This document shows, piece after piece, positions 27,437 through 34,808 of a stretch of 64,000 nt of DNA. Both the position numbers and the translations under genes were made by a program. The stretch spans positions 1 through 64,000 of the forward strand of contig JAAXGN010000016.1 of NCBI GenBank assembly GCA_012267415.1, given 5' to 3'. Position 1 is the stretch's first letter. Every line of letters starts with the position of its first letter. This DNA comes from Candidatus Poribacteria bacterium. Lineage in GTDB: Bacteria; Poribacteria; WGA-4E; WGA-3G. The notes beneath the pieces were generated by a model, which was not told where the DNA came from, searched no databases, and saw only the letters and a list, made by a program, of their open reading frames with translations.

Positions 27437-27566
27437 TACACTTTACGTTGATACAGAATGCCAGATGTGATAGTATTAACTGAGGGTTGTGCATAAATAA
27501 TGCAGCTTCATAGGCGGATTGACCACACAACCTATAATCAAGAATATAACATAAATGGAGATAATT

Positions 27567-28859
27567 GTGGCACAAACACCGAACATTGTACTTATTCTCG
27601 CTGACGATCACGGCTATGGCGATATTTCCGCACACAACGGTCCCGCAATACAAACACCAAACATTGATAGAATCGCCTCAGAAGGCACACGATTTACACA
27701 ATTCTACGCCAATTCCTCTGTCTGTTCCCCAAGCCGCGCATCTCTTATGACTGGACGGTACCCTGACAGAGTCGGTGTTCCCGGTGTCATTCGCACCCAT
27801 GCACAGAACAACTGGGGATATTTCCACCAAGATGCTATAACCCTACCTTCAATGCTAAAGCAGAAAGATTATCGCACATCACTCATCGGCAAATGGCATT
27901 TGGGACTTGAGGATGAAAACCATCCCTGCAAACGAGGTTTTGACCACTTTCACGGCTTCCTCGGCGATATGATGGACGACTATTACACACATCTGCGACA
28001 TCAAAATAACTATATGCGACACGGGTTTGAAACGATTGATCCGAGGGGACACGCGACGGACCTCTTCACAGATTGGAGCGTGGATTTTATTCGAACACAT
28101 GCACACACATCTCATCCTTTCTTCCTCTATCTTGCCTACAACGCACCGCATACACCGATTCAACCCCCTGAAGACTGGATTGCACGCGTAATAGAACGAG
28201 AACCGGATATTTCTCCGCAACGTGCGAAATACATTGCACTCGTTGAGCACATGGACCACGGTATAGGACGCGTACTGGATACACTCACAGAAACTGATCA
28301 ACTCTCTAACACGCTCGTGATTTATACATCTGATAACGGCGGTGCAATGCAAGTCGGCGCAAATAACGGTCCACTACGCGGGCAAAAAGGTGAGATGTAC
28401 GAAGGTGGGATACGCGTGCCTACTTGTGCTATGTGGAAAGATCACATCCCCCAAGGACATGTTACGGATCAGGTCGCAATGCTGATGGACATTTACCCGA
28501 CTTTATGCGATATTGCTGATATACCTATCAATCACAAAATTGAGGGACGATCAATTTGGAATACGTTGCAAGGTGAGAAGCAAGATTTTTCCGACCGACT
28601 TATCTATTGGCTTCGTAGAGAAGGAGGACAACAGTGGATCGGAGAATGCCAACACGCTGTCCGTCGTGGCGATATAAAACTATTGCACAACAGACCTTTT
28701 CAACCCTTGGAACTCTATGATCTTTCCAGCGACCCGTTAGAAACAACTGATAATTCACAGACGGACAATAAACGCTATAAGGAGATGAGCCGTTTATTGC
28801 AGGAAGAGATACAACAGGCGGGTAGTGTGCCGTGGCAAAAAGGAAATACAGATGGGTAA
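27567..28859 (+). CDS. Type I sulfatase
   Basis: The 430-residue protein carries CSPSR at residues 53-57 (Cys53 is the formylglycine precursor), preceded by IVLILADDHGYGDIS with the metal-binding Asp pair. IYTSDNGGAMQ near 252 is the second metal region. GTG at 27567 is favoured over the in-frame ATG at 27555 because GGAG sits seven bases ahead; the difference is four residues. No signal peptide is visible. It hydrolyses a sulfate ester, substrate unknown. The Hsp70-like gene begins inside its last eight bases, so they are translated from one message, which is a notable pairing of a sulfatase with a chaperone. Confidence 0.9.
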   Translation: MAQTPNIVLILADDHGYGDISAHNGPAIQTPNIDRIASEGTRFTQFYANSSVCSPSRASLMTGRYPDRVGVPGVIRTHAQNNWGYFHQDAITLPSMLKQKDYRTSLIGKWHLGLEDENHPCKRGFDHFHGFLGDMMDDYYTHLRHQNNYMRHGFETIDPRGHATDLFTDWSVDFIRTHAHTSHPFFLYLAYNAPHTPIQPPEDWIARVIEREPDISPQRAKYIALVEHMDHGIGRVLDTLTETDQLSNTLVIYTSDNGGAMQVGANNGPLRGQKGEMYEGGIRVPTCAMWKDHIPQGHVTDQVAMLMDIYPTLCDIADIPINHKIEGRSIWNTLQGEKQDFSDRLIYWLRREGGQQWIGECQHAVRRGDIKLLHNRPFQPLELYDLSSDPLETTDNSQTDNKRYKEMSRLLQEEIQQAGSVPWQKGNTDG

Positions 28860-30447
28860 AGTTATCGGAATTGATTTTGGTACAACATACTCAGTTGTAG
28901 CGCATGTCAATGAGCACGGTCAACCTGAGATTATCCCCAATTTAGAAAGTGATCGCATCACCCCATCGGTCATTCTGTTTGAGGACAACCTTGTGACTGT
29001 CGGGAAAATTGCCAAGCAGAGTGCAAGGGCGGTCCCTGAACAAATTGTAGAATTTGTCAAACGTGAGATGGGTAAATCTAAAGTAGAGTTCTTTCGCTCA
29101 TTCAATCAAAAGGACTATTCCCCTGAGGAACTGTCCGCCCTTGTCTTGAGGAAACTCAAACAGGATGCTGAAACCTATCTGAATGAAGAGGTTACTGATG
29201 CGGTTATCACTGTTCCTGCTTATTTTCACGATGCTGAACGTGAAGCCACACGGAACGCAGGTAAAATCGCTGGACTGAATGTGCTACAAGTCCTGAATGA
29301 ACCGACTGCAGCAGCACTCGCTTACGGTATAGACCAGTTAGGTAGCAACCAGAATGTGTTCGTTTTTGACCTCGGTGGTGGAACATTTGATGTGACGATA
29401 ATGCGAGTGTCAGATACTGAGATACAGATGCTCGCAACGAACGGGGACCATAGACTCGGTGGTAAAGATTGGGACGATAAAATCATCACACACGTTGCTG
29501 AGTTGTTTGAAATTGAACACGGAGAAAATCCTTTAGAAGACCTACACACATATCAAGACCTGCAATTGGATGCGATCGGCGCAAAAGAATCTTTGTCATT
29601 GCGACAGAGGGCGTTAATCGTTTGCGGATACAATGGAAAGACAACTCGCGTGGAACTGGAGCGTGGGAAATTTGAGGAACTCACAACCGACCTTCTTGAA
29701 AGATGTCGCACTCTATGTGAAGTTGTCCTATCGGAAGCAGAAATGACATGGGAAGACATTGACAAGATACTACTGGTCGGTGGTTCTACGCGTATGCCTA
29801 TGGTGCAAAATATGATCGCTGCAATTAGTGGAAAGGAGATAAATCCCCATGAAGTCAATCCTGATGAGGTAGTGGCGATAGGTGCAGCAATTCAGGGTAC
29901 ACTCCGACAAATATCTGACAGTAGCACCGACACAGAAGATATGCCTGACGCAGTCATTGAACGGTTCATTGGACCAGACGGTGCACCGAAGGTGACCGTC
30001 ACGGATGGGGCAACACACAACCTCGGACTCGTCGTACTGAACGCACTACGCGAGTATATCATACACGTTATGATCCCAAAAATGACACCTGTCCCGTGCG
30101 AAATATCAGATAGATTCCTAACAGTAGACCACAATCAACCATCCGTACTGATTGAGGTCGTGCAAGGACTTGAACAGGACCAACCAAGAGACGAAATTGA
30201 GTTTTTTGAGGAATACAAACTGGGTGAATGTACTTTGGAACTTCCACCCGGTCTGCCGCAAGGTTCTCCAATTGAGGTGAACTATAGCTACAACATAGAC
30301 CAGAATCTTGAGGTGACAGCAAAATCACTCAACGACGATTCGCCTACTGCTGTATACGATATTTTCTCAATCATTGACAGACCGACTCTCAATGAAGAAG
30401 AGGTTGCGCAAGCGCAAACCGATCTACGAGACCTTGTCGTTGAATAG
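28852..30447 (+). CDS. Hsp70 (DnaK)-like chaperone lacking the C-terminal lid
   Basis: The 531-residue protein has a full Hsp70 nucleotide-binding domain: IGIDFGTTYSVVAHV at the front, VPAYFHDAEREATRNAG near 127, LNEPTAAALAYG near 157, FVFDLGGGTFDVTIM near 180 and ILLVGGSTRMPMVQ near 315. About 130 residues of a substrate-binding beta domain follow (from about 390, with ATHNLGLVV), but the alpha-helical lid and the usual C-terminal tail are missing; DnaK is about 100 residues longer. ATG at 28852 overlaps the sulfatase gene end. Three J-like/SUMF1 genes follow downstream. It should bind ATP; its partner is likely the J-like modules next door, which is inference. Confidence 0.9.
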   Translation: MGKVIGIDFGTTYSVVAHVNEHGQPEIIPNLESDRITPSVILFEDNLVTVGKIAKQSARAVPEQIVEFVKREMGKSKVEFFRSFNQKDYSPEELSALVLRKLKQDAETYLNEEVTDAVITVPAYFHDAEREATRNAGKIAGLNVLQVLNEPTAAALAYGIDQLGSNQNVFVFDLGGGTFDVTIMRVSDTEIQMLATNGDHRLGGKDWDDKIITHVAELFEIEHGENPLEDLHTYQDLQLDAIGAKESLSLRQRALIVCGYNGKTTRVELERGKFEELTTDLLERCRTLCEVVLSEAEMTWEDIDKILLVGGSTRMPMVQNMIAAISGKEINPHEVNPDEVVAIGAAIQGTLRQISDSSTDTEDMPDAVIERFIGPDGAPKVTVTDGATHNLGLVVLNALREYIIHVMIPKMTPVPCEISDRFLTVDHNQPSVLIEVVQGLEQDQPRDEIEFFEEYKLGECTLELPPGLPQGSPIEVNYSYNIDQNLEVTAKSLNDDSPTAVYDIFSIIDRPTLNEEEVAQAQTDLRDLVVE

Positions 30448-30483
30448 TGTTTGTTGGATTTATCAATACAATAGGAACAATAC

Positions 30484-30588
30484 ATGTCCAGACGTGAAGA
30501 ATTCATTACATTTATCAATACCCTTAAGGCTGCCTCTCCAACGATTACCGATGAACAAAGAAGCGGACAAACGCATGTCAAAACGTGA
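30484..30588 (+). pseudogene. Truncated remnant of a J-like/SUMF1 family N-terminus
   Basis: An open frame of 34 codons (MSRREEFITFINTL, then AASPTITDEQRSG) reproduces the first 27 residues of the family member that starts next to it (MSKRDDFITIITAF, then AASATISDEQRKG) and then diverges to a stop (tail QTHVKT). It overlaps the start of that gene by 14 bases. It looks like the stump of a fourth tandem copy lost by deletion. It may be translated but is unlikely to function. Confidence 0.6.
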
Positions 30589-31912
30589 CGATTTCATTAC
30601 TATTATCACAGCATTCAGAGCAGCGTCTGCAACAATTTCAGATGAACAACGTAAAGGTCTGCTCCGTCAAGCAGTACACAACTACGGTCTCTCTGTTGAG
30701 GAAGCCACAGAAATCTTACAGTTTTTAGGATTAGTAGTTGGCAGAGAGATAGACTATTTTGATGTGTTAGGTATCTCTGTTGATGATATACACGGCTTAG
30801 ATGAAACCACAATCGTGAGTCGTGTTGAGACAGCACACAAGAAACTTTACCGAGAATCTTTGAACGCTGGCGGTCGACCACGTCCAGATGGTCGAACTGA
30901 AAACGAATGGCGAACACTTCTGAACCAAGCCAGAGATACACTCATAGATGTAGAAAAACGAAACACACATATCGCATCGTTTGAGAAGGATATACCATTT
31001 AACACGGAAACTCTTTCAAGAGAAGTATCAACAACACCAGAACAGATACCTTCACGCCATACTGAATCTGTTTCTGATGAAGAACTCTCTCCCACAGAAC
31101 CAACCACGAACCTCCCTTTAGAAAAGGATGGTATGGTACTCATTCCTGCCGGCAATTTTCAGATGGGTAGTGAAGAGTTTATAGCGTATAACAACGAAGA
31201 TCCGATACATACTGTATATCTTGATGCCTTTTATATTGACAAATACCCGGTGACAAATGAAGAATATAAGGAATTTATTGATGCAAATCCACGATGGCAT
31301 AAACCTCAAAAGTGGTACGAGCGCAGTAGACTAAGTGAAGCTATTCTTAAACAATATCACGATGGAGACTACTTGCACGATTGGAAATGGGAAGACTATC
31401 CACACAGGAAGGTAGATCATCCAGTTACTTGGGTTAGTTGGTATGCAGCCATGGCGTATGCACAATGGAAAGGTAAGCGATTGCCGACTGAAGCTGAATG
31501 GGAGAAAGCTGCCCGTGGCGGATTAGCGGGAAAAAAGTATCCGTGGGGAGATTCTTTAGATATGGAATTTTTTGATAAAGTTCTAAATCTCAATAAGACA
31601 ACACCCGTAGGTTCATATCCAGCAAATGACTACGGATTGTATGATGTCATAGGTAATGTGTTTGAGTGGTGTCTTGATAGGTGGGATCAAGATTTCTATA
31701 AGAATTCACCACAGCAGAATCCTCTTTCAGATGGCAATATTTCCGATTTAATCAACAATTATAAAAACATTAAGGAAACCCGTGTGCTAAGAGGAGGTTC
31801 TTGGCCCAAAAATGAACGGGTTGCAGCGCGTTTTAGCAGTCCGCCTCAGTATACATCCTTCAACATTGGGTTTCGCTGTGTTAAACCTGCCTCAACAAAC
31901 GATGCTGTGTAA
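30575..31912 (+). CDS. J-domain-like plus SUMF1-domain protein, copy 1
   Basis: The 445-residue protein has three parts. Residues about 1-58 are helical (AASATISDEQRKGLLRQ, GLSVEEATEILQ). Residues about 60-136 resemble a J domain: YFDVLGIS, a long helix TIVSRVETAHKKLYRESL, a loop NAGGRPRPDG and a helix LLNQARDTLIDVEKR, but the HPD site reads RES. After a linker the SUMF1 (FGE-sulfatase) fold spans about 187-440, with MVLIPAGNFQMGSE, KRLPTEAEWEKAARGG, YPWGD, GNVFEWC and RVLRGGSW. No Cys is found after RVLRGGSW until GFRCV, so the FGE cysteine pair is absent. It follows the Hsp70 gene. ATG at 30554 is an alternative start. Confidence 0.85.
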   Translation: MSKRDDFITIITAFRAASATISDEQRKGLLRQAVHNYGLSVEEATEILQFLGLVVGREIDYFDVLGISVDDIHGLDETTIVSRVETAHKKLYRESLNAGGRPRPDGRTENEWRTLLNQARDTLIDVEKRNTHIASFEKDIPFNTETLSREVSTTPEQIPSRHTESVSDEELSPTEPTTNLPLEKDGMVLIPAGNFQMGSEEFIAYNNEDPIHTVYLDAFYIDKYPVTNEEYKEFIDANPRWHKPQKWYERSRLSEAILKQYHDGDYLHDWKWEDYPHRKVDHPVTWVSWYAAMAYAQWKGKRLPTEAEWEKAARGGLAGKKYPWGDSLDMEFFDKVLNLNKTTPVGSYPANDYGLYDVIGNVFEWCLDRWDQDFYKNSPQQNPLSDGNISDLINNYKNIKETRVLRGGSWPKNERVAARFSSPPQYTSFNIGFRCVKPASTNDAV

Positions 31913-31921
31913 TATAGAATA

Positions 31922-32041
31922 TAGTATAGTTAATAATTAATGGAGACATTTCACCCCGTACACGATGACGAAGACCAACCAACGTAGGGGCGAGGTCCCC
32001 TCGCCCGTTGTGAAGTGTTACATTAATTCTGAAGTTCACTA
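31922..32041. repeat. MITE-like element, family 2, copy c
   Basis: A 120-bp element with ends TAGTATAGTTAATAATTAATG and, inverted, TAGTGAACTTCAGAATTAATG (21 bases each), and a GC-rich core GTAGGGGCGAGGTCCCCTCG. It nearly matches the element at 37862-37971 in ends and core. It fills the gap between copies 1 and 2 of the J-like/SUMF1 genes. Confidence 0.7.
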
Positions 32042-32063
32042 TAAAATGTAAGTTTGCCTAACC

Positions 32064-33425
32064 ATGAGAAGAAGATTATCGCAACCTCAACACCATGAAT
32101 ATTTTGCCCTCATCAATGCGTTTAAAGCAGTTTCACCAACTATCTCTGAGGAACAACGTAAAGGGCTCCTCCGAAGAGGTATAGAAGAATACGGGATATC
32201 TGTTGATGAAGCTGTTGAAATACTTGACACATCAGGGTTAGTCATCGGAGAACAACTCAATTACTTTGAAATATTGGGTCTGTCAATTTCAGACATTGAA
32301 AATCAGAGCGAGGATGAAATCGCGCATAAGGTCAACGATGCACATAAAGAACGCTATCGCGCATCATTGAATGCGGGAGGCCGTCCTCGTCCTGATGGTA
32401 AAACAGAGGAACAGTGGCGAACACTACTAAACCAAGCACACGAAGTCTTGATTGATCCGAAGAGAAGAGATGAACATATTGCAATTCTTCAATACGAAGT
32501 CGCAGAACAGTATTCAGATGTTGACGAAACACCTTTACAAGAATTATCCGACGATGACAAAACTATTGATGAAATATCAGATGTTGATAGGACATCGCTT
32601 CAGCAAACAACACATCAGACTGTTCCACTTGATATAGATGTACCTCATGACATGGTTTACATCCCTGCTGGTGAATTTCTAATGGGAAGTGATGAAAAGG
32701 AAGCAAAGAAATCTGAAAAACCTGTGCATAGTGTCTACACAGATGCATGCTTTATGGATAAATACTTGGTAACAAATGCACAATTTAAGGATTTCATTGA
32801 TGCAAATCCACAATGGCGTAAACCGCAGCCGTCGAAAGATCATATAGATGAAATATATCATGATGGTGCTTACTTGGAACATTGGCATGAGAACAATTTT
32901 CCAAGAGGAAAAGAAAATCATTCGGTCACAAAAGTGAGTTGGTATGCAGCAACGGCGTATGCACAGTGGGTTGGCAAACGTTTACCGACAGAAGCAGAAT
33001 GGGAGAAAGCTGCACGGGGTGGGTTGGAAGGCATGAAATATCCGTGGGGAGACACAATTGATACGACAAAGGCTAACTACCTATTTCATATCGGTAGTAC
33101 CACCCCAGTTGGTCATTATCCTCCAAATAGATACGGACTATATGACATGTGTGGAAATGTTTGGGAATGGTGTCTTGATGCGTATCAAGCGAGATTCTAT
33201 GTGAAGTCACCATCACATAATCCATTTTCTGATAATATTAGTATGGAAAACGTAATCTATTATTTCAGAGAAATCAATACGCCTCGTGTATTACGTGGTG
33301 GTGCGTGGGGGGTTGATCCTAACGGTGTGAGAGTCGCATCTCGGCTAAAAGGGCAGCCAGAATACACGATTCAGACCTTCGGTTTTCGTTGCGTATTGGA
33401 TATTGATAAGCGTAATATAGACTAG
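32064..33425 (+). CDS. J-domain-like plus SUMF1-domain protein, copy 2
   Basis: The 453-residue protein repeats the architecture of copy 1. The N-terminal helical part ends at DTSGLVIGEQLNYFE; the J-like region is about 67-138 with HKERYRASLNAGGRPRPDG and LNQAHEVLIDPKRRDEHI, RAS taking the HPD position. The SUMF1 domain spans about 197-450 (MVYIPAGEFLMGSD, RLPTEAEWEKAARGG, GNVWEWC, RVLRGGAW). The stretch after RVLRGGAW has no Cys before GFRCV. Its first 150 residues and much of its DNA match copy 3 almost exactly, so duplication was recent. No clear ribosome-binding site precedes the ATG. Function unknown; likely a partner of the Hsp70. Confidence 0.85.
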   Translation: MRRRLSQPQHHEYFALINAFKAVSPTISEEQRKGLLRRGIEEYGISVDEAVEILDTSGLVIGEQLNYFEILGLSISDIENQSEDEIAHKVNDAHKERYRASLNAGGRPRPDGKTEEQWRTLLNQAHEVLIDPKRRDEHIAILQYEVAEQYSDVDETPLQELSDDDKTIDEISDVDRTSLQQTTHQTVPLDIDVPHDMVYIPAGEFLMGSDEKEAKKSEKPVHSVYTDACFMDKYLVTNAQFKDFIDANPQWRKPQPSKDHIDEIYHDGAYLEHWHENNFPRGKENHSVTKVSWYAATAYAQWVGKRLPTEAEWEKAARGGLEGMKYPWGDTIDTTKANYLFHIGSTTPVGHYPPNRYGLYDMCGNVWEWCLDAYQARFYVKSPSHNPFSDNISMENVIYYFREINTPRVLRGGAWGVDPNGVRVASRLKGQPEYTIQTFGFRCVLDIDKRNID

Positions 33426-33437
33426 GATAGAGCTGAT

Positions 33438-34703
33438 ATGAATAAACACGATGCGTATAAAACCCTAATTCTGGAATTTAAAGCAGTATCTCCATCCATC
33501 ACCGAGGCGCAACGCAAAGGACTCCTCCGAAGAGGCATAGAAGAACACGGACTCTCTGTTGAAGAAGCTATTGAAATACTTGACACATCAGGGTTAGTCA
33601 TCGGAGAACAGCTCAATTACTTTGAAGTGTTAGGTCTGTCAATTTCAGACATTGAAAATCAGAGCGAGGATGAAATCGCACATCACGTCAACGATGCACA
33701 CAAAGAACGTTATCGCGCATCATTGAATGCCGGAGGTCGTCCCCGTCCTGATGGTAAAACAGAGGAACAGTGGCGAATACTTCTAAACCAAGCACACGAA
33801 GTCTTGCTTGATCCGAAGAGAAGAGATGAACATATTGCGGTTTTTCAGTATGAAGTCGCAGAACAGTATTCCGATATTGATAGGACATCACTTGAGCAAA
33901 CAACACATCAGGCTGTTTCACATGACATAGATGTGCCTACTGACATGGTTTACATCCCCGCTGGTGAATTTCTAATGGGAAGTGATGAAAAGGAAGCAAA
34001 AAACTCCGAAAAACCTGTGCATAGTGTCTACACAGATGCATGCTTTATGGACAAATACTTGGTAACAAATGCACAATTCAAGGATTTCATTGATGCTAAC
34101 CCAAAGTGGCAAGTTCCGTTGTGGTTAGGAAATTCATTTTTTCCGAAATATCGTGATGGGGACTATTTGAAAGACTGGTATAAAGGCAACTATCCAACGG
34201 GGAAAGCCAACCATCCAGTAAATTGGGTGAGTTGGTATGCTGCAATGGCTTATGCGCAATGGGTGGGTAAACGTCTACCAACAGAGGCGGAATGGGAGAA
34301 AGCTGCGCGCGGTGATATGACAAGACAAAAATATCCCTGGGGTAATACGATTCATGTGAGCAGCGCAAACTACGATACACATGTAGGTGAAACAACACCT
34401 ATAGATACGTATCCGCCAAACAAATACGGTTTATACGATATGGTGGGAAACCTCAGTGAATGGTGTCTTGATGAATGGGATAGCGAATTCCATGAGTCTT
34501 CACAAAACCATAATCCTGTTTCAGGTGGTAGTATCAGTGACATCATAGAAAATCTGAGAAAAACAAGAAATCCACGGGTGATACGGGGTGGTTCATGGTA
34601 TTCATCAGCGCATGAAGCATGCGTTTCATCGCGAGGCAGATCAGCCCCTTGGAAAACAGCCAGTACCACAGGATTTCGCTGTGTGAAACCTATTGAATCT
34701 TAA
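33438..34703 (+). CDS. J-domain-like plus SUMF1-domain protein, copy 3
   Basis: The 421-residue protein has the same three parts as copy 2, with a shorter linker (J-like about 60-135, SUMF1 from about 169). Its N-terminal half is almost identical to copy 2 in DNA and protein; its C-terminal half diverges, including the lectin-like end RVIRGGSWYSSAHEAC. One Cys follows RVIRGGSW here, so only one of the two FGE active-site cysteines could be present. It starts 12 bases after copy 2 ends and is probably co-transcribed. The sequence pattern, conserved front and variable end, suggests a common partner and differing ligands. Confidence 0.85.
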   Translation: MNKHDAYKTLILEFKAVSPSITEAQRKGLLRRGIEEHGLSVEEAIEILDTSGLVIGEQLNYFEVLGLSISDIENQSEDEIAHHVNDAHKERYRASLNAGGRPRPDGKTEEQWRILLNQAHEVLLDPKRRDEHIAVFQYEVAEQYSDIDRTSLEQTTHQAVSHDIDVPTDMVYIPAGEFLMGSDEKEAKNSEKPVHSVYTDACFMDKYLVTNAQFKDFIDANPKWQVPLWLGNSFFPKYRDGDYLKDWYKGNYPTGKANHPVNWVSWYAAMAYAQWVGKRLPTEAEWEKAARGDMTRQKYPWGNTIHVSSANYDTHVGETTPIDTYPPNKYGLYDMVGNLSEWCLDEWDSEFHESSQNHNPVSGGSISDIIENLRKTRNPRVIRGGSWYSSAHEACVSSRGRSAPWKTASTTGFRCVKPIES

Positions 34704-34780: not shown

Positions 34781-34808
34781 TTGACAAAAGTCAGGAAACA
34801 ACTATAAT
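34781..34808 (+). promoter_or_regulatory. Consensus sigma-70 promoter upstream of the Gfo/Idh/MocA gene
   Basis: TTGACA (34781-34786) and TATAAT (34803-34808) are perfect consensus boxes with a 16-base spacer. They lie about 118 bases before the ATG at 34926. A 62-codon open frame crosses this region but is not supported by codon pattern or homology. Confidence 0.6.

Follow-up and report, generated by a model that had tools for sequence, protein, structure and literature searches.

An Hsp70 gene followed by three tandem fusion genes, each of which joins a J-domain-like (J-like) region to a SUMF1 domain, raises the question of whether an Hsp70 chaperone can possess a set of adaptors that belongs to it alone. 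The genes lie on a 64,000-nt stretch of the Candidatus Poribacteria contig JAAXGN010000016.1 (contig C143 of the genome that we call G000 or the own genome); this whole stretch is termed the window, and all window positions refer to it. On balance we favour, with modest confidence, the reading that the dedicated lidless Hsp70 and the array of J-fold/SUMF1 fusion proteins constitute a private adaptor system of that Hsp70. The genetic unit, and the structural prediction of a dedicated Hsp70 with J-like, SUMF1-tipped adaptors, are well supported, while we infer from the sequences that the Hsp70 would bind the J-like proteins, that the SUMF1 domains would bind ligands, and that docking of the adaptors, a substitute trigger and insulation from DnaK would make up the mechanism. 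The main features are as follows.

28852-30447, + strand: dedicated lidless Hsp70, 531 residues (PF00012, 410 bits; aligned with the own DnaK and with relatives)
30575-31912, + strand: J-like/SUMF1 copy 1, with a helical domain before the J-like region (about 30749-31000, by family hidden Markov model, HMM) and SUMF1 at 31124-31885 (PF03781, 222 bits)
32064-33425, + strand: copy 2, with the helical domain at about 32064-32255, the J-like region at about 32256-32510 (family HMM) and SUMF1 at 32646-33395 (PF03781, 215 bits)
33438-34703, + strand: copy 3, with the helical domain at about 33438-33611, the J-like region at about 33612-33866 and SUMF1 at 33939-34688 (PF03781, 204 bits)
33729-33761, + strand: helix II-III loop of copy 3, AGGRPRPDGKT, in place of an HPD loop (AlphaFold2 secondary structure; column counts)

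Both the gene reading and the PF00012 and PF03781 matches agree with the initial annotation of 28852-34703 as an Hsp70 followed by three SUMF1 fusions.

The dedicated Hsp70 lacks a lid and the R167 trigger residue

In the usual view, the HPD motif of the J domain and Arg167 (R167) of Hsp70 make up a universal and invariant trigger of Hsp70. The aspartate of HPD displaces or acts on R167, and DnaK R167H suppresses the inactive DnaJ D35N (PMC7289447, available in part), a laboratory suppressor pair which indicates that the two halves of the trigger can be changed together; DnaJ D35N is likewise described as compensating DnaK R167A (PMC13012618, available in part).

The PF00012 match of the window Hsp70 comprises a best stretch, residues 4-352, and a second stretch, and an alignment with the own DnaK shows the motifs of the nucleotide-binding domain (NBD) to be intact, DLGGGTFD and NEPTAAA among them. 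The C-terminal part aligns with the β part of the DnaK substrate-binding domain (SBD-β) and the protein terminates at residue 531, ahead of the SBD-α lid, which is absent from the alignment, as had been proposed. Homologs of this Hsp70 are 492-547 residues long (120 listed), compared with 639 for the own DnaK. The R167 position of DnaK is occupied by Gln146 (29287-29289), and the interdomain linker reads KVTVTD where the own DnaK has the hydrophobic DILLLD. The replacement of R167 is general: among the 34 Hsp70 genes linked to J-like genes, the R167 position holds glutamine in 32 and histidine in two (the gene of G031, split into two frames in its assembly, was read piecewise), a 35th gene, which breaks off at the edge of its contig in G046, has glutamine, and the 120 listed homologs, of 7989 matched, have glutamine (118) or histidine (2). 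The own DnaK has arginine, as do the housekeeping DnaKs of relatives, which combine R167 with DILLLD in 20 of 20 cases.

R167-keeping Hsp70s share loci with the dedicated R167-less Hsp70 (L114:1500-3584, L106, L107, L110 and L116). The one that was scanned, at L114, carries a C-terminal vWA domain (PF00092, 99 bits), and arginine is found in all four distinct vWA-carrying Hsp70s.

The J-like region resembles a J domain but has lost HPD

When the J-like family was compared by hhalign with 34 canonical J domains, the match had Prob 92 and a score of 36.7, a value reached by none of 200 column-shuffled controls (mean 10.2, standard deviation 2.7, maximum 22.3) and far above reversed columns (9.6) or the N-terminal helical domain (11.4). 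The likeness to J domains claimed for this region is thereby borne out, and the AlphaFold2 model of the region has the predicted four-helix J fold.

HPD is absent from all 83 J-like domains that span helices II and III in the family-HMM loci and from all 115 of a second, partly overlapping locus set (five and eight partial rows, respectively, being excluded). The initial annotation had placed R(E/A)S where HPD should be; the loss of HPD stands, whereas in the model the R(A/E)S residues lie within an extended helix II (residues 77-97), and the II-III loop proper, residues 98-108, has the sequence A-G-(G/A)-x-x-R-x-D-G. In this loop [RK]-x-D-G is kept in 80 of the 83 domains, the three exceptions all being from G063. 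All 77 copies in alignment A2 have Gly99, Arg103, Asp105 and Gly106, but its loci were found with a DG-containing pattern that biases this count upward, so that 80/83 is the unbiased figure. In alignment A1, which was assembled without use of the R-x-D-G motif, Ser95, Leu96, Gly99, Arg103, Asp105, Gly106 and Trp112 are each at least 90% conserved.

Elsewhere in the own genome (contig C146, L041:6154-11838) a divergent Hsp70 of 855 residues has, in our reading, glutamate at the R167 position. The two proteins encoded after it have NPFHILGAT close to the N-terminus, and their ends resemble (H/N)PR(D/N)R. By hhalign these reach 78% to the SUMF1-linked J-like family and 8% to canonical J domains, and they are possibly a second HPD-less J-like family.

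Hsp70 and J-like genes form a genetic unit

Our survey covered 84 genomes of the phylum, with a threshold of E <= 1e-40 for the dedicated Hsp70. The J-like domain was found in 29 genomes, all from one family, with up to ten matches per contig, or about nine copies, since two matches in G035 resemble pieces of one. A dedicated Hsp70 is present in 28 of these 29 genomes versus none of the remaining 55 (Fisher p 1.9e-21, uncorrected for kinship). For 34 of 34 dedicated Hsp70 genes a J-like gene lies downstream on the same strand, within 1.1 kb in 33 cases and at 1.8 kb in one, which confirms the expectation that relatives would conserve the neighbourhood. The 29th genome, G063, has a divergent fusion of Hsp70, helical domain and GrpE adjoining its J-like genes (L115:4328-6310; PF00012 355 bits, PF01025 38 bits), and one J-like domain there is, as we read it, joined to a long ankyrin-repeat array, not to SUMF1 (L115:6942-9086). 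G046, counted among the 55, has a vWA-Hsp70, a GrpE-like gene and a dedicated Hsp70 truncated by the contig end. The cassette is patchily distributed within genera g1 and g3. A scan of genome contigs with one R-x-D-G loop pattern, which compact forms outside Poribacteria would escape, gave 30 loci, all 30 from Poribacteria.

A second type of locus, in G041, G043, G047, G053, G054, G055, G063, G071 and partly G046, pairs the dedicated Hsp70 with a GrpE-like protein, encoded separately or as a fusion; some of these loci also include a vWA-Hsp70. In six of these relatives the J-like protein is about 1000 residues long, with hydrophobic segments ahead of SUMF1, and may be membrane-anchored.

The SUMF1 domains lack the FGE cysteines and vary in a loop

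All three window copies contain PF03781, the formylglycine-generating enzyme (FGE) fold, and sequence matches of the domain include 6muj (E 4.5e-36) and 2y3c, the Treponema denticola variable protein 1 (E 2.5e-11). FGE has two active-site cysteines after RGGS. Neither is present in copy 2 when it is aligned with solved FGEs, and no conserved cysteine was found at the FGE positions among 44 family members. The cassette domain thus shares an FGE-type fold, by sequence, with FGE itself and with TvpA, a variable protein of diversity-generating retroelements, and differs from them in having no catalytic cysteines and in lying on a contig with no match to a reverse transcriptase (RVT_1); such matches occur on five other contigs, and no search for template repeats was made.

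Variation within SUMF1 is restricted to loops. The RGGSW-GFRC loop has a mean entropy of 2.41 bits in 39 array proteins (19 of 58 having dropped out of the set) versus 0.56 in ten single-copy orthologs that combine an HPD-containing J domain with SUMF1, and the remaining SUMF1 positions have 1.55 and 0.58 bits, respectively. Because array proteins diverge more overall (median identity 0.52 versus 0.74), the ratio of loop to rest, 1.55 in arrays and 0.97 in single-copy orthologs, makes the fairer comparison. Copies 2 and 3 resemble each other in their first half and are diverged over their last 197 codons (dS about 0.33 versus 1.93), and we take this to be the trace of an old recombination inside SUMF1.

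A fusion of SUMF1 with a canonical HPD J domain already exists in the own genome (contig C28, L036:8010-9017), with counterparts in nine relatives of the genus, and provides a precedent for the cassette proteins. It resembles them in joining J to SUMF1 and in having no cysteine in the RGGSW-GFRC loop, but its HPD is intact (KYHPDKNP; PF00226, 91 bits), the helical domain is missing, the loops are conserved and the protein has 336 residues. Another use of SUMF1 in the own genome is seen on contig C38 (L025:11259-12398), where a SUMF1 protein has a signal-peptide-like start and a TonB-C-like stretch ahead of SUMF1.

A proposed private, re-wired Hsp70 system

Because HPD and its target arginine on Hsp70 have both been lost, the Hsp70 and the J-like proteins likely form a functional pair, and a cassette lacking HPD with glutamine or histidine at R167 is what a private, re-wired pair would be expected to look like. 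We propose that the SUMF1 domain binds a target and the J-fold domain docks that target on the dedicated Hsp70 alone. With both halves of the trigger replaced, the pair would neither answer to nor disturb the housekeeping DnaK-DnaJ system, and ATP hydrolysis would be set off by a substitute contact, most likely between the R-x-D-G of the II-III loop and the interface around the glutamine or histidine. An Hsp70 with no lid would hold its clients briefly, and could serve as an ATP-timed switch or assembly factor, not as a refolding machine. The several SUMF1 copies, with their variable loop before GFRC and their recombined, modular structure, may confer different target specificities. Nucleotide exchange could be provided by the GrpE-like protein where there is one, and in the own genome presumably by its single housekeeping GrpE. 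That the cassette behaves as a unit is supported by G028, from which it is absent as a whole, and its sister G027, in which it is present.

Compared with the canonical DnaK-DnaJ-GrpE set, the cassette likewise encodes together the NBD and SBD-β of an Hsp70, a J fold and, in many relatives, a GrpE-like factor; it differs in having no HPD, no R167, an altered linker and no lid, and in that its J-like domain is fused to SUMF1 and multiplied in tandem. The initial annotation had spoken of a new kind of system. The dedicated pairing of Hsp70 and J-like proteins upholds this in part, but the claim has to be softened, as loci combining HSP70, GrpE and DnaJ fusions have been reported from other phyla (Kaur et al. 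2020, PMC7159879, available in part). From the available text, their GAP1-N2 GTPase theme comprises HSP70, GrpE, sometimes a second HSP70, and a fusion of DnaJ to a variable binder. The combination of HSP70, GrpE and binder fusion is found in the relatives, where a J-like domain takes the place of a true J domain; the variable domain is SUMF1 in the cassette and FNIII in the published theme. By analogy, we consider this HSP70/GrpE/DnaJ-FNIII theme the nearest published design and the Poribacterial cassette a variant of it. A search of the main text of PMC7159879 for Poribacteria returned nothing, and its available portions make no mention of a loss of HPD or R167. Neither GAP1 nor a DO-GTPase was recognised among the 18 proteins scanned, of which eight are from the window and ten from relatives and the own genome.

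Several observations weigh against a private adaptor system. Pfam yields no PF00226 match at E <= 10 in the window proteins, and NCBIfam solely HscB, for one copy, at E 0.1; no PDB sequence match of the J-like domain is significant by itself (best E 0.25), and Foldseek gave no match to the J-like model at E <= 0.001. The J-like domains of G063 depart from R-x-D-G, and its fused Hsp70 has lysine at the R167 position, neither glutamine nor histidine. In the window Hsp70 the equivalents of Asp393 and Asp481 of the R167 network are retained (in our own numbering). Nine contigs with J-like genes, one of them that of G063, have no dedicated Hsp70 match; another is contig C123 of the own genome, where a J-like pair adjoins an SRP54-type GTPase gene. 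The window's locus lacks the GrpE-like gene, which is absent from 11 of the 28 best loci overall. Positive selection was not seen, pairwise dN/dS staying below 1 in all stretches for which it could be computed. Finally, the loss of HPD and R167 would be equally expected if the Hsp70 had abandoned J stimulation altogether.

A wider version of the private adaptor system, to which we would give tentative credence at most, is an insulated Hsp70 machine with its own J-like proteins and GrpE, in which the HPD-R167 switch is replaced on both sides and the SUMF1 array drives an immune-like or symbiosis-related recognition. Close to it stands a sensing or conflict role powered by the Hsp70, as in the systems of Kaur et al. 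2020. The variable SUMF1 would then recognise an invader or a foreign molecule, and the threshold at which a response complex assembles would be set by the module of Hsp70, GrpE and J-like proteins. The ingredients are those of the theme HSP70, GrpE, second HSP70 and FNIII-DnaJ, and FGS (SUMF1) domains are, in the available text of PMC7159879, the variable binders of sister conflict systems; the patchy distribution in g1 and g3, the arrays of up to about nine copies, the variable loop, and the vWA-Hsp70 and membrane-like segments of the second-type loci also fit. However, no effector domain, GAP1 or GTPase was recognised among the scanned genes, the sole PADLOC match concerns the Hsp70 domain and is weak (E 0.0008), and the window's contig has no reverse transcriptase match. 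We regard a conflict role as rather unlikely.

It is also unlikely, in our judgement, that the J fold is a structural or dimerisation module and that the Hsp70 acts independently of J proteins in folding or assembling the SUMF1 proteins as the working part. The absence of HPD and the loss of R167 would both fit relaxed selection, the PDB and VIA rows include J-type chains that belong to large complexes, mL77 of the trypanosome mitoribosome being an example, and some arrays have no dedicated Hsp70 on their contig. A J-free Hsp70 is nevertheless disfavoured because the J-like loop and the glutamine or histidine are conserved: the loop, far from decaying, keeps R-x-D-G and its A1 residues at the frequencies given above, the R167 position is restricted to these two residues in 34 of 34 genes and not in free drift, and the adjacency of Hsp70 and J-like genes is equally complete.

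If the private adaptor system is real, nature would have supplied an orthogonal chaperone whose recognition heads can be exchanged. In entire lineages both halves of the trigger appear to have changed naturally, and the Poribacterial cassettes would offer a natural test of the purpose of that trigger and of the way in which one Hsp70 network can be divided into machines that do not interfere with each other.

The GrpE-like gene, the sulfatase and other features of the locus

The sulfatase gene precedes the Hsp70 and fusion genes on the same strand, and further features are:

27555-28859, + strand: sulfatase (PF00884, 220 bits), a neighbour outside the system
28839-28859, + strand: deletion scar, end of the sulfatase open reading frame, KGNTDG-stop (tails and upstream DNA compared)
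30482-30559, + strand: remnant of a fourth J-like/SUMF1 copy (direct reading; fits the family N-terminus in alignment A1)

A GrpE-like gene lies directly upstream of the Hsp70 in 17 of the 28 best loci and, counted by locus, in 12 of 15 within the window's genus; the five GrpE-like proteins scanned match PF01025 with 31-49 bits (cut-off 25.8). In the window, G031 and G041 no GrpE-like gene precedes the Hsp70 and the sulfatase ends in KGNTDG. In relatives the sulfatase stops a few residues earlier, and it is the GrpE-like protein that ends in KGGNTDG or similar. Since the tail of the sulfatase thus matches what in relatives is the 3' end of the GrpE-like gene, a deletion joined the two genes, and the 8-nt overlap of sulfatase and Hsp70 is its scar.

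The initial annotation had tied the sulfatase to the cassette through a shared transcript, a link that finds no functional support. The sulfatase ortholog (79-89% identity) is still present in six of eight cassette-less genomes examined; in G028 it is followed directly by a GH95 gene (Pfam) that in the sister G027 lies beyond the cassette, and in G052 and G073 an ankyrin gene, which in G081 precedes the cassette, stands between sulfatase and GH95. From this comparison the sulfatase is, as we see it, a mere neighbour. That the SUMF1 proteins are (pseudo-)formylglycine-generating factors, for which the Hsp70 keeps sulfatases unfolded for modification, is suggested by the CSPSR site of the window sulfatase and by the presence of a sulfatase shortly before the cassette in most of the loci compared from relatives, but is very improbable and largely refuted by the non-cysteine residues at both FGE cysteine positions, the persistence of the sulfatase and the nature of the overlap.

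The remnant of the fourth copy consists of only the first 26 codons of the helical domain, after which the family sequence ends. A short G+C-rich inverted repeat, GTAGGGGCGAGGTCCCCTCGCCC (window 31980-32012), separates copies 1 and 2 and has the look of a dispersed repeat. Promoter-like sites across the region number 13, versus 17.8 in its shuffles, and are thus not in excess; one of perfect form, TTGACA-16-TATAAT, at 34781-34808, 3' of copy 3, suggests that the genes after copy 3 may have their own promoter.

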